Both the position numbers and the translations under genes were made by a program. Source: Meira nashicola (Eukaryota; Basidiomycota; Exobasidiomycetes; Exobasidiales; Brachybasidiaceae). Taken from it: a DNA stretch of 64,000 nt. The notes under the pieces are model-generated. The model was not told the DNA's origin. It was given only the letters and a program-made list of their open reading frames with translations, and did no database searches. Below are positions 58,750 to 64,000 of the stretch, piece by piece; within the stretch, counting starts at the first letter, position 1, and each line of letters opens with the position of its first letter. The stretch lies in NCBI GenBank assembly GCA_001600355.1, contig BCJU01000004.1:1302001-1366000 (forward strand). The letters run 5' to 3'.

Positions 58750-61700
58750 ATGACAACCACATTCGCATCCGCCAATGCTCGAGCCAATTGCATTTATACG
58801 GCGGCATCCGCGAATCGAAATTCACATGTGCTCGATTGGACATCTCTTGAAGAAGGAATATCAGAGATAGCCTATGCTTCAGATCGAAATATTGCAATTG
58901 CTAGAAATATTAATGATGTGCATAGACAACCAACAAGATTGATAGCTACGCCCAATAAAATTCTTACAGTATTAAAGTTTGCACATCCGAGATATGGTAA
59001 TGCTAAACCAAAAATCATTGCAGCATCAGAAGATGGATATTTGTACCTCTACACTTATCATACAACCAATTCGGAATCTTCATCATCACCATCATTTGAA
59101 TGGCAACTACATCAAGAATGGCAAGCAAGTCCAAAACAATCGCAAACGCAGAAGAAACCGGTTCATCCTGCAAGAAAAGCAAAAGCAGAACCTTCAGCTT
59201 CAGTTCGTGCTTTGGGTGTATTGAGAAGAGATCCTTCTCAAGTTGATCAAAATGAAAATACAACTGATGAAATACTCTTTGCATCGGCTACATCTGATGG
59301 TATGTTACAGATCTGGAGCGTGAAAGATACTTCAGAGGTAGAACTTTTACAAACAATCTCACTTGGAAGATCAAGAGCGGAAACTCGAACAGAGGTACTT
59401 CCTCTCGATATCGCCATTACATCTCTACCGGGTAGTGCGAACGCTTTGTTATTGGCTGTCAGCGGTACAGATTCAAAGATTGACTTGTTTTTGGCTGAAG
59501 ATGGTCGGACGTTCACTCGATTATTTTCATTATTGGGTCATACAGATTGGGTGAGATCGATAGACTTTTGTCGATCAGGTAAAGAAAGTGAGCCTTGGGT
59601 AATGTTAGCAAGTGGTGCACAAGATCATGGAATTCGTCTTTGGCGCATTGAACAATCAAATGATTCACAAGAAACAGTCTCTACTACACCACTAAAAGAA
59701 GAAGAACGCGATGAGTTTGATAAGATGGCTTCTCAGATAGAAGATGGTGAAGATGAGGCAATGGCAACAAAGATGCAAACGTTTCGATGTGATGCCAGAA
59801 AATGGAGTATATCATTTGATGCTTTATTGATTGGACATGAACATTGGGTTACAGGTCTTCGTTGGGCACCTGCTTCGTTAGAAGGACAACCAGCTGCTTT
59901 ACTTTCCTCGAGTGCTGATAATAGCGTAATTCTTTGGACTCCCTCTTCCGGTGTCGCAAAAGCTATTGCAGGGATTGATTTGCCTTTGTTCGATGAAGCA
60001 GAAACAAAGAAACGCATTGATACAAAAGAACAGGATGTATGGGTTGCCCTTCAACGATTTGGTGAAGTTGGCAATGTAGGCAGTGCAGCAAATGGAATGT
60101 ATGGATGTTCATGGGATCCAACAATTCGACCATCATCAAATCAACAAGCAACACTTGCACATGGTTACGGTGGTGCTATACATATATGGAGCAGACATGA
60201 GGAGAATGGTAGAGCGCAACCTTGGTTACCTCAGCCTGGTTTAGGTGGTCATTTTGGCGCGGCAACTACAGTACGTTGGGAGCCTGGAGGTCAATATATT
60301 CTTACAGGTGGATTAGACAAAACTACAAGGTTACATGGTTGCTATCGCGAAGGAGAACAACATTCATGGCACGAGATGGCAAGACCACAAACGCATGGAT
60401 ACGAAATTACTGCACTTTCTTGGCTTTCTCGTTTAGCATTCGCCAGTGCGGGTGATGAAAAAGTGATTAGAGTTTTTGAAGCACCAAGAGGATTTGTACA
60501 ATCTGCTCAAAATCTGAATATGCTGTCTAAGGAGCAGAATGCTAATGTGCTCATCGTCTATATTCCCGATCTTGCTCATCTAATTAAACCTGGAGAGATT
60601 GCAAATTGCATCAAGGAAGCTACAAAGAAGTCTCTACATAAAGGCAGGTTGAATGTAGTTGTCTTATCACCTCTATTTGATGATGTACAACATGGCAAAT
60701 CTCCAAAAGCGTCCTTCGAGCAAGTTCAAGCTTTTCTGAAATGGTGTTATGCTATGAGTTGGGGACCAGCTGTTGAGGCTGATCAACTATTATTTGATAT
60801 TGACGTTCTCTTGATGGGATCTCAAAGTGCACAAGTCAAATTAACTCAAATTCAAAAACCTGATGAATTATTCATTGTCAATGACGTAAACTTTAAGCCG
60901 CCTTTCGAAGTCGAAAATGCAATTCAATTAGAAATTGGTTCAAGTGACAAAGGTGAAATCGATGCTTCCGACCCATCTAATAAACCTTCATCATTTGAAC
61001 AGCATGAAGCAATCGCTCTTGGAGGAACATTTGACCATTTGCACGTAGGACACAAGATCTTATTAAGTATGGGTTGTCTTCTTGCTACACGTAGGATCGT
61101 CGTTGGTGTTACAGGTGAAAGTATGTTATCGAAGAAAAAGTACGCCGATTTACTTGAATCGATTCAAACTCGCCTTGATCGTGTAGCTCTCTTTATGAAT
61201 GCATTTTGTAATGCGATCGGACGTACAGAATTATTTCATGATATCGTAATCTTGAAAGATGTTGCAGGACCGCCTGGCAGTGATCCGAATATTACTGCTC
61301 TTTTATTCACAGATGAAACCGTTGGAGGAGCAGACTTTATTGATAAAGAAAGAACAAAACGTGAATTAAAAATTCTTGATCGATTTACGATTGGTGTTAT
61401 TGGTGCATCTGGAGAGACTGATGTTCAAGGAAAAGATGCTTCTGAATTAGCGGCAGCAAAAGTAGGAAGTACAGCAATTCGAGGATGGATTGAAAAGAAT
61501 AAAGTGAAAGTAAAGCCAACACCTGCTTCTTTGGAAAAAGTTCCAACATTAAATGGTGATCCTCGACCTGTTGGAGCAAGTGTTCCACCCCTGGGATTAT
61601 CGAATCGAGCCATTTTTGATTCTAGAGATGGTCAACAAGGTGATCCTCTCGATGGACCTTCTGCAACCGGTCAACCGATAGGCAGTGCTATTCGATCAAT

Positions 61701-62481
61701 CTCAACTAAACTTCAAAGACCACCAGTTGAGGAAGAATTACACAATCATTCGTTATGGAGTGAAGTGTCAAAATTGTACGGACACAGTTTAGAATTAGCT
61801 GCTTTGGATGTTGACGTTGAATCTGGTTTGGTGGCTAGTAGCTGTAAAGCAAGTCATGCAGAACATGCAGGAATTCGATTGCACGATAGTAAACAAGGAT
61901 GGCGAGAGAGACAGATATTGATGGGACATTCGCTCAATGTGACTCGTGTTCGCTTCAGTCCAAACGGTCAAAAGCTTGTTTCGGTAAGTCGTGATAGATC
62001 ATGGCGTTTATTTGTACGAAAACAACAACAAGCAGAGGAAGGCAAAGGATCTTCAGATGATATTTTTGATCAAGTTGCTGAAGGGCAAGAAGCACACAGT
62101 AGAATCATTTATGATGTCGCTTGGTGCGGTAATGATGTTTTTGCTACTTCATCGCGAGATGGAAATGTCAAACTTTGGGATGCCAATGTTGATGAGAATA
62201 GAAAAGATGCTTTACCGACTGCAACACTCTCATTTAAAGATCCAATCACTGCCATTTCTGCAATTGATGAAAATTTCCTTGCAGTCGGAAGTGAAAAAGG
62301 TCATGTTTGGCTCTATCAACGGGCTGGAAATTCTGATTGGGCAGCTATTCTCAAAATTCCAAATTTGCATGCTGATGCACTCAATGAACTCGCATGGCAA
62401 CCTGTTTACGATCAAAAGCGCATCATTCTCGCATCTGCAGGTCAAGATCGTGCTGTACGTCTGACCGAATTTCTACTTTAA
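58750..62481 (+). CDS. ELP2: Elongator subunit ELP2 with embedded phosphopantetheine adenylyltransferase
   Basis: 1243-residue uninterrupted frame. Residues 1 to about 585 are the first WD40 propeller of Elp2 (ASANRNSHVLDW; LLGHTDWVRSIDF; ARKWSISFDALLIGHEHWVTGL; FGEVGNVGSAANGMYGCSWD). Residues about 591-915 are a whole eukaryotic-type phosphopantetheine adenylyltransferase (see separate entry). From about 942 the Elp2 sequence resumes exactly as expected (GASVPPLGLSNRAIFDS; LWSEVSKLYGHSLELAA) and completes the second propeller. Elp2 scaffolds Elongator (tRNA wobble uridine modification); PPAT makes dephospho-CoA. No splice sites are evident at the junctions, and introns in this window are about 70 nt. 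I infer one fusion polypeptide. Confidence 0.92.
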   Translation: MTTTFASANARANCIYTAASANRNSHVLDWTSLEEGISEIAYASDRNIAIARNINDVHRQPTRLIATPNKILTVLKFAHPRYGNAKPKIIAASEDGYLYLYTYHTTNSESSSSPSFEWQLHQEWQASPKQSQTQKKPVHPARKAKAEPSASVRALGVLRRDPSQVDQNENTTDEILFASATSDGMLQIWSVKDTSEVELLQTISLGRSRAETRTEVLPLDIAITSLPGSANALLLAVSGTDSKIDLFLAEDGRTFTRLFSLLGHTDWVRSIDFCRSGKESEPWVMLASGAQDHGIRLWRIEQSNDSQETVSTTPLKEEERDEFDKMASQIEDGEDEAMATKMQTFRCDARKWSISFDALLIGHEHWVTGLRWAPASLEGQPAALLSSSADNSVILWTPSSGVAKAIAGIDLPLFDEAETKKRIDTKEQDVWVALQRFGEVGNVGSAANGMYGCSWDPTIRPSSNQQATLAHGYGGAIHIWSRHEENGRAQPWLPQPGLGGHFGAATTVRWEPGGQYILTGGLDKTTRLHGCYREGEQHSWHEMARPQTHGYEITALSWLSRLAFASAGDEKVIRVFEAPRGFVQSAQNLNMLSKEQNANVLIVYIPDLAHLIKPGEIANCIKEATKKSLHKGRLNVVVLSPLFDDVQHGKSPKASFEQVQAFLKWCYAMSWGPAVEADQLLFDIDVLLMGSQSAQVKLTQIQKPDELFIVNDVNFKPPFEVENAIQLEIGSSDKGEIDASDPSNKPSSFEQHEAIALGGTFDHLHVGHKILLSMGCLLATRRIVVGVTGESMLSKKKYADLLESIQTRLDRVALFMNAFCNAIGRTELFHDIVILKDVAGPPGSDPNITALLFTDETVGGADFIDKERTKRELKILDRFTIGVIGASGETDVQGKDASELAAAKVGSTAIRGWIEKNKVKVKPTPASLEKVPTLNGDPRPVGASVPPLGLSNRAIFDSRDGQQGDPLDGPSATGQPIGSAIRSISTKLQRPPVEEELHNHSLWSEVSKLYGHSLELAALDVDVESGLVASSCKASHAEHAGIRLHDSKQGWRERQILMGHSLNVTRVRFSPNGQKLVSVSRDRSWRLFVRKQQQAEEGKGSSDDIFDQVAEGQEAHSRIIYDVAWCGNDVFATSSRDGNVKLWDANVDENRKDALPTATLSFKDPITAISAIDENFLAVGSEKGHVWLYQRAGNSDWAAILKIPNLHADALNELAWQPVYDQKRIILASAGQDRAVRLTEFLL
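60520..61494 (+). other. PPAT (CAB4/COAD-type) module inside ELP2
   Basis: Domain within the 58750-62481 frame. It starts with a methionine (residue 591, MLSKEQNANVLIVYIPDL), then the poorly conserved N-terminal part seen in fungal Cab4. The nucleotidyltransferase core follows: ALGGTFDHLHVGHKILL (HxGH at about 765-768), VGVTGESMLSKKKYADLLES, TRLDRVALFM, KDVAGPPGSDPNI, FTDETVGGADFIDKER and KVGSTAIRGW (about 905-912, the ISST-type phosphate-binding motif). All key motifs are intact, so activity is expected. Confidence 0.92.
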
Positions 62482-62520: not shown

Positions 62521-64000
62521 TTAACGTGAAAAAGAAGCTCCTTGCCCTTTAGGCATCTTTTTGTTCTTGTCCGTCTCTCCCAAATCTTCTCGATTAAAAT
62601 AGTGTGGTGCTACTTCGATTAACCATTCACCCTTTATTGTCATCAATGAGCGCATAAAGTTCTTGCTCGTCTCTACCAATTCATAATAGAGCACAAATTT
62701 AGGCGGAGGTACTTCTTTAAATAAACAAGAAGAAGGATGAATGTGAACGTTTGCATTTTGCTTGATTGCCCTATATCCTCCTCCTCTTTGTAATTGTGCA
62801 GTATTGCTAAAGTATCCTGCACATAAACTTTTCATTATCGGAACCAAATCCGAAGCATCTCGATTGGATTCAGGAACGATTTCAACGCGATCACATAATT
62901 GTGCCAATTGATCACGTACGTCACGTACTCTAGAAAGAACTTTTGGTTGAACGAAATTTTCCATGCACCATTGATAGCTATAATTACTTTCTACCCATGC
63001 TTCCCAAACATTTAACATGGTAAACATATCCCCTCCGGTAGGATGACTTAACGCAGCTCGAGCTTTATCAGCATGCATCTTCTTGTCTTTAGGTCGATAA
63101 AAGAGTGCACTAGATTCTTGTAACATCGAGACAATCGAAAGAACTTCGTCAGTGCAATGATATTCTTCACTTGCAATGATAGCTTTGCTTAGCATAGGAT
63201 CCACTGGAAATTCTGCCATTCGTCTTCCAAGCTTGGTCAGCTCACCTCGATCGTTTAACGCTCCTAGAGCGTATAAAAGGCTCAAACTACGCATCAATGT
63301 ATCGGTCGGAGGTGGATCGAGGAAATCAAAATTGAGCAAGTCATTAATACCTAATGACTTCAAAAGCAAAACTACGTTGGAAAGATTTGTCCTTTGAATT
63401 TCTGGAGGTGTATGTGCTTCCATTTCATTTTCAAATGCCCATTTGGTGAACAATCGGAATGTTTTTCCTGGTCCAACTCGACCTGCTCTACCGGCACGTT
63501 GATTTGCTGAAGCTCTACTGCAAGGAACTACTGTCAAGCTAGACATTCCCGTTCTGGGATTATAACTATTTTGTTTAACAAATCCAGGATCGATAACAAA
63601 GACTACACCATCGATCGTAATTGAAGTTTCGGCAATATTTGTGGCCAGGACTACCTTTCGTGCACCTTCAGGTGTTGGTTCAAAGATCTTAGCTTGCATT
63701 TCTGAGGGAAGGTTGGCATAAATTGGACAAATGATCAATTCAGCGACTTTATTACCCAATGCACGTGAAGTTTCTTGAAGATTTTCCATTGCAGCATCAA
63801 TCTCATCTTGGCCAGTAAGGAAAACCAAAATATCTCCTTTAGGTTGGGTAGTATGGATTTGAAAGACTGTAGTGATGGCAGCGTGCAGATAATTCGCTTC
63901 AGGTTGTGGTGTGTAGTGAATATCGACTGGAAATCGCCTTCCTGGAACGTAGAAGATTGGAGCATCATCGAAATATCCACTAAACTTTTCTGCATTGATG
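62521..64000 (-). CDS. PRP2: PRP2/DHX16-type spliceosomal DEAH helicase, 5' partial
   Basis: C-terminal 493 codons of a DEAH-box RNA helicase that activates the spliceosome before the first step. The frame is open to the window edge (beginning [20 protein letters not shown]), so the N-terminus with motifs I-III lies beyond 64000. Visible are motif IV ([11 protein letters not shown]), V ([20 protein letters not shown]) and VI ([18 protein letters not shown]), then the ratchet/winged-helix part ([20 protein letters not shown]) and the OB-fold end ([19 protein letters not shown]). The [14 protein letters not shown] wording and C-terminus fit Prp2/DHX16 better than Prp22, Prp16 or Prp43. It converges on ELP2; the stops are about 40 bases apart. 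Confidence 0.88.

Follow-up and report, generated by a model that had tools for sequence, protein, structure and literature searches.

A predicted Elp2-phosphopantetheine adenylyltransferase fusion in Meira nashicola and related fungi, apparently replacing a stand-alone CAB4 gene

Investigation of a 64,000-nucleotide stretch of the genome of Meira nashicola (assembly GCA_001600355.1, contig BCJU01000004.1, positions 1,302,001 to 1,366,000 of the forward strand; hereafter the window) revealed a single unbroken open reading frame (ORF) of 1243 codons in which the sequence of the Elongator subunit Elp2 is interrupted by that of a Cab4-type phosphopantetheine adenylyltransferase (PPAT), assigned to the fourth step of coenzyme A (CoA) synthesis (Table 1). 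The frame is also open throughout on assembly contig C4, where it comprises 1244 codons counted from the preceding stop.

Regarding the Elp2 part, the Elp2 structures of mouse, human and yeast in the PDB align on both sides of the insert (best E value 3.2e-88), conserved residues are kept at 118 of 128 Elp2 columns, and the predicted fold has two WD40 propellers resembling those of solved Elp2. When 53 Elp2 proteins were aligned, consisting of 32 fused rows including that of the window, five from Tilletia and 16 from other fungi, residues 598-931 formed the sole stretch exceeding 15 columns that is present in the fused and empty in the unfused proteins. The flanks of this insert align in all 53 rows, with an FxAPxxF-like motif upstream (exceptions include Ceraceosorus and Malassezia cuniculi) and P[PA]LGLSN downstream. 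These two motifs are separated by 26-32 residues in three unfused Elp2 proteins; distances taken for the window protein and 50 of 64 fused matches, described below, are about 333-441 residues in the window protein and 49 of the matches and 310 residues in the remaining one (P0025).

Single seven-bladed propellers align over residues 456-1199 of the structure model, model residue 456 being residue 499 of the protein, and R574, which lies 24 residues ahead of the insert, is the equivalent of human Elp2 R462. PMC8113450 places R462 in the second WD40 domain and, from a human Elp2 model fitted into the yeast complex, at the Elp2-Elp3 interface. Because of both the propeller alignments and the position of R574, the PPAT is placed within a loop of the second WD40 propeller, and not between the propellers, where an earlier note on this DNA had located it. 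The same note had proposed a loop insertion into a complete Elp2 as opposed to an end-to-end fusion, which agrees with the Elp2 matches flanking residues 598-931.

Regarding the insert, the family PF01467 was matched with 22.5 bits when the insert was searched alone (cut-off 21), the archaeal PPAT 3do8 was matched with an E value of 6e-05, and the structure predicted for the PPAT part alone (predicted local distance difference test score, pLDDT, 89.0) has the nucleotidyltransferase fold of PPAT, the matches of the fold search also including FAD synthetases and universal stress proteins. The HxGH motif (HLHVGH, residues 763-768), the STxIR motif (GSTAIR, residues 906-911) and other near-invariant residues are present, with 39 of 44 conserved PPAT columns kept in the window protein and 21 of the 44, including the named motif columns, invariant in all 65 fused sequences (the window protein and 64 matches). 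The Cab4-type N-terminal domain aligns with that of stand-alone enzymes and is modelled with high confidence at low identity, seven distant relatives sharing 20-34% with this domain and 42-65% with the core. A complete CAB4/COAD-type PPAT with intact HxGH and GSTAIR motifs, as read by the earlier note, is thereby borne out, and the structure prediction that it had proposed modelled both the Elp2 propellers and the PPAT fold.

Table 1. Features of the ELP2-PPAT gene (window positions; residues are those of the 1243-residue protein)
Feature	Position	Strand	Description and basis
ELP2-PPAT fusion gene	58750..62481	+	single open frame, 1243 amino acids; frame in assembly and homologues
Elp2 propeller 1	58750..60243	+	residues 1 to about 498, approximate boundary; single propellers align from residue 499 onward
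Elp2 propeller 2, portion ahead of the insert	60244..60519	+	about two blades by reading; contains R574 (60469-60471), equivalent to human R462
Left junction	60520..60540	+	ATG at 60520 is M591
Inserted Cab4-type PPAT	60541..61542	+	residues 598-931; sole fused-only run of more than 15 columns
Cab4-type N-terminal domain of PPAT	60541..60999	+	residues 598-750; alignment and model
PPAT catalytic core	61000..61494	+	residues 751-915; PF01467, 3do8, conserved columns, fold matches
HVGH (HxGH motif)	61042..61053	+	residues 765-768
GSTAIR motif	61465..61482	+	residues 906-911
Right junction, ahead of conserved Elp2 RPVGASVPPLGLSN	61543..61560	+	flank comparison with homologues
Elp2 propeller 2, portion following the insert	61561..62478	+	residues 938-1243; about five blades by reading

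Downstream of the fused gene, a DEAH-box-helicase-like ORF, recognised by reading only, occupies positions 62521-63999 of the window on the minus strand; it ends 39 bases past the stop of the fused gene and the two genes are thus closely convergent.

The genome (17.9 Mb, 20 contigs) was searched in six frames, exon by exon. A second PPAT was not found in this six-frame search, in which the PPATs of the window, of Tilletia and of Trametes, used as queries at E<=10, hit only the fused locus; the check for a separate CAB4 gene suggested by the earlier note was therefore negative with all three queries. Elp2 residues 1-590 matched only the fused locus as well (E<=0.001). PF01467 was detected in three places in total, and the two other genes were read from their ORFs as encoding a choline-phosphate cytidylyltransferase and a nicotinamide mononucleotide (NMN) adenylyltransferase. 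Pantothenate kinase (PanK), dephospho-CoA kinase (DPCK) and Elp3 are encoded by separate genes. The ORFs of DPCK (CAB5, L010:2109-2885) and ELP3 (L011:4624-6312) are about 9.7 kb apart on contig C1, with a carnitine-acyltransferase-like ORF, by reading, between them. Since all five CAB genes are essential in yeast, according to PMC8494682, and no second PPAT was found in the search described above, the fused copy is presumably the PPAT in use in this genome.

The earlier note had also raised the question of whether related fungi carry the same ELP2 insertion, and the architecture recurs in 64 of 71 matches to residues 560-960 (P0001-P0064), which have both the HxGH motif of PPAT and P[PA]LGLSN of Elp2; because of this number chance is excluded. 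The closest named relative is the exobasidiomycete Meira miltonrushii (P0001, 91% over residues 560-960). Among the 64 fused proteins 23 fungal names are fully legible, one of them just Malassezia sp., and these belong to Meira, Exobasidium, Tilletiaria, Microstroma, Violaceomyces, Parajaminaea, Sympodiomycopsis, Ceraceosorus (two), Jaminaea, Kalmanozyma, Testicularia, Pseudozyma, Sporisorium, Ustilago and Malassezia (eight). The placement of Meira in the Exobasidiales, Tilletiaria in the Georgefischeriales, Ceraceosorus in the Ceraceosorales and Malassezia in the Malasseziomycetes was looked up; the other named genera presumably also belong to the Ustilaginomycotina. The fusion is thus apparently widespread, comprising many smut-like fungi and skin yeasts. 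Database names of the fused proteins mostly refer to Elp2 or WD40 repeats, and many entries list PF01467. One fused fragment (P0025) is filed under the fern Adiantum nelumboides and is probably fungal contamination.

Seven matches were not scored as fused. P0066 is an Elp2 ending within the PPAT, P0068 lacks any Pfam match at E<=0.01, and P0069-P0071 are Elp2 proteins without the insert. P0065 and P0067, models from Tephrocybe and Termitomyces, have an RNA-dependent RNA polymerase joined to PPAT; these are probably merged neighbouring genes, or possibly another PPAT fusion. Tilletia is unfused, with a plain Elp2 (five proteins) and a stand-alone PPAT (five proteins). Two of the stand-alone PPATs of Tilletia horrida (P0074 and P0077) carry the database name Elongator subunit elp2, a name probably transferred from fused relatives.

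Trees were built for Elp2 (53 rows), PPAT (55 rows) and both jointly (45 rows). In all three, the fused and Tilletia rows form one clade, with support values (SH-like approximate likelihood ratio test, SH-aLRT) of 100, 100 and 99, respectively, as would be expected if both genes were inherited vertically and the insertion took place at one site. Tilletia is nested among the fused rows in each tree with weak support; the branch splitting Malassezia-like rows from the rest has SH-aLRT values of 85, 83 and 87 (ELP2, PPAT, joint), and in a careful joint tree the Malassezia-like split has 85/87 and the grouping of Tilletia with Exobasidium-, Ceraceosorus- and Microstroma-like rows 48/79. Monophyly of the fused rows was not rejected (approximately unbiased test, p-AU 0.527, 0.124 and 0.434 for ELP2, PPAT and joint), the ELP2 tree constrained to it even scoring 0.55 log units above the unconstrained one. 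The weak placement of Tilletia and the unrejected monophyly allow both orders of events, so that either the fusion occurred after Tilletia had branched off or Tilletia later underwent fission. In a FastTree analysis of 120 matches listed of 214 to the PPAT alone, together with 65 fused PPATs, 11 of the 120 fell inside the fused clade; six of these are fragments of fused proteins and the other five are the stand-alone PPATs of Tilletia. Among the PPAT matches listed, no stand-alone enzyme other than those of Tilletia joins this clade.

The best explanation, to which we assign a probability of roughly 0.82, is that the gene encodes one bifunctional Elp2-PPAT protein that has replaced the stand-alone CAB4. 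Its basis is that the frame is continuous, that the catalytic PPAT columns are intact and the Elp2 columns conserved, that the expected folds are predicted, that the insertion site is common to the clade and that the genome search found no second PPAT. On this explanation a complete Cab4 PPAT would have entered a loop between blades of the second WD40 propeller, probably in a single event early in the Ustilaginomycotina, after which the stand-alone CAB4 was lost, unless the gene itself had moved. In a single uncleaved chain, the PPAT domain would be active in making dephospho-CoA, and the two Elp2 propellers would form around this domain and keep Elp3 docked on Elp1 within Elongator. That the fused Elp2 joins Elongator is suggested by its conserved sequence and its predicted fold. 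According to PMC10018365, Elp2 clamps Elp3 opposite Elp1 and Elp123 forms two lobes; because of these two lobes, two PPAT domains would be expected per assembled Elongator, one on each lobe close to the Elp2-Elp3 interface. Two basic functions of the cell thus seem to travel in one protein.

Several observations weigh against this explanation. PF01467 reaches only 20.3 bits in the whole protein, which is below the cut-off of 21, and the window protein deviates at five of the 44 conserved PPAT columns (A754, V784, M816, P842 and T854), two of which, 842 and 854, are altered in all 65 fused sequences. The six-frame search may have missed an intron-rich or unassembled PPAT copy, since no ethanolamine-phosphate cytidylyltransferase, an enzyme usual in fungi, was recognised among the three PF01467 places. 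Alternative splicing, cleavage or internal initiation may also act on the fused gene. Furthermore, Elp2 is dispensable in yeast, so that conservation of the gene does not guarantee assembly of the complex.

As to why the two genes came together, we incline slightly towards a neutral relocation, compatible with the bifunctional protein proposed above, in which a loop of ELP2 tolerated the arrival of CAB4, the original copy was lost and the difficulty of reversal alone keeps the fusion in place. The site is a loop whose length varies in the three unfused proteins, the distance between its flanking motifs also varies among fused proteins (310 to about 441 residues), the N-terminal PPAT domain has diverged freely relative to the core, and the essential role of PPAT would itself preserve the insert. 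However, persistence over several orders is equally expected under selection, and if Tilletia re-split the genes, reversal was not so hard.

An adaptive coupling, by which the PPAT would supply CoA locally or report CoA, ATP or phosphopantetheine status to Elp3, is possible and less likely than neutral relocation; we regard it as doubtful. It is thinkable because Elp3 binds and hydrolyses acetyl-CoA (PMC11096365), and both the closeness of the insert to the R462 equivalent and the retention of the fusion in the 64 matches are in its favor. However, dephospho-CoA still requires DPCK, the product of a separate gene, and acetylation before use by Elp3, and since two further steps are needed a direct hand-over is unlikely; sensing or shared stoichiometry would be the bolder option. 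Elp3 needs acetyl-CoA for wobble-uridine modification. CoA is not known to be limiting for Elongator, and Tilletia is viable without the fusion. The far-reaching version, that CoA synthesis is hard-wired to translation in most Ustilaginomycotina by a sole PPAT sitting beside Elp3 on every Elongator lobe, is equally speculative; if true, CoA production and wobble-uridine modification would share stoichiometry and location, and Elongator would be an essential metabolic particle.

That the frame yields separate proteins, the insert being spliced out or the chain cleaved or re-initiated so that no tethered enzyme results, is improbable. Eleven in-frame GT-AG pairs exist on paper around the insert, and an ATG lies at its left edge, but none of the six GTs scanned at this edge has a GTAAGT-like context, and if all transcripts lacked the insert, none of the PPATs found by the genome search would remain. 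GC content at third codon positions (GC3) is similar in the insert (0.249) and the flanks (0.241 and 0.234), with overall GC of 0.386 versus 0.419 and 0.426, and an intron removing the insert was rejected at the level of sequence. M591 as a relic start codon is likewise unsupported, being matched only in the Meira-like rows P0001 and P0002 among the rows shown.

A degenerate or purely structural insert is very improbable: the invariance of the catalytic motif columns and the lack of another PPAT among the search results speak against it, and the two altered columns, which would favor it, hold T (842) and S (854) in at least 93% of stand-alone PPATs and A/P and T, respectively, throughout the 65 fused sequences, the four aligned stand-alone Tilletia PPATs also having A and T. 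An assembly chimera or merged gene model, a concern of the earlier note that the DNA-level view of a single genome would favor, can be dismissed since the frame is open and the same junctions recur in proteins of other species from ncbi, uniref, jgi, ena and lgn sources.

The bifunctional protein, if confirmed, predicts that ELP2, which is non-essential in yeast, is essential for a metabolic reason in fungi that carry the fused gene, and that losing ELP2 would give these fungi phenotypes mixing two functions. Because databases mostly name the fused protein after Elp2 or WD40 repeats, a false gap at the fourth step of CoA synthesis is possible in metabolic reconstructions. With Tilletia as the unfused control, the group offers a natural experiment on whether tying a CoA enzyme to an acetyl-CoA-using tRNA modifier brings a benefit.

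Regarding known systems, the parent families are known and enzyme fusions are a known kind. No description of an Elp2-PPAT fusion was found in literature searches aimed at it, judged from titles and abstract starts and with subscription papers and preprints outside the search, in agreement with the earlier note, whose author knew of none; the literature found describes neither this combination of proteins, nor an enzyme nested within an Elp2 propeller, nor the apparent replacement of a stand-alone gene. Compared with solved Elp2 (PDB 8asw, 4xfv, 5m2n and 8ptx), the window protein differs in that one loop of propeller 2 is expanded by an enzyme of 334 residues. It shares with stand-alone Cab4 (Tilletia P0074-P0078, Trametes P0079) the N-terminal domain and the nucleotidyltransferase core with HxGH and STxIR, but is continuous with Elp2 at both ends. 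PMC8494682 describes yeast Cab4 as binding Cab3 within a CoA-synthesising complex, and the mammalian bifunctional CoA synthase COASY as likewise having a PPAT joined to another protein. In COASY, however, the partner of PPAT is DPCK, which acts next in the pathway; in Meira the only CoaE match lies in a separate ORF of 258 amino acids on contig C1, and the partner of PPAT is a subunit of a tRNA-modification complex.

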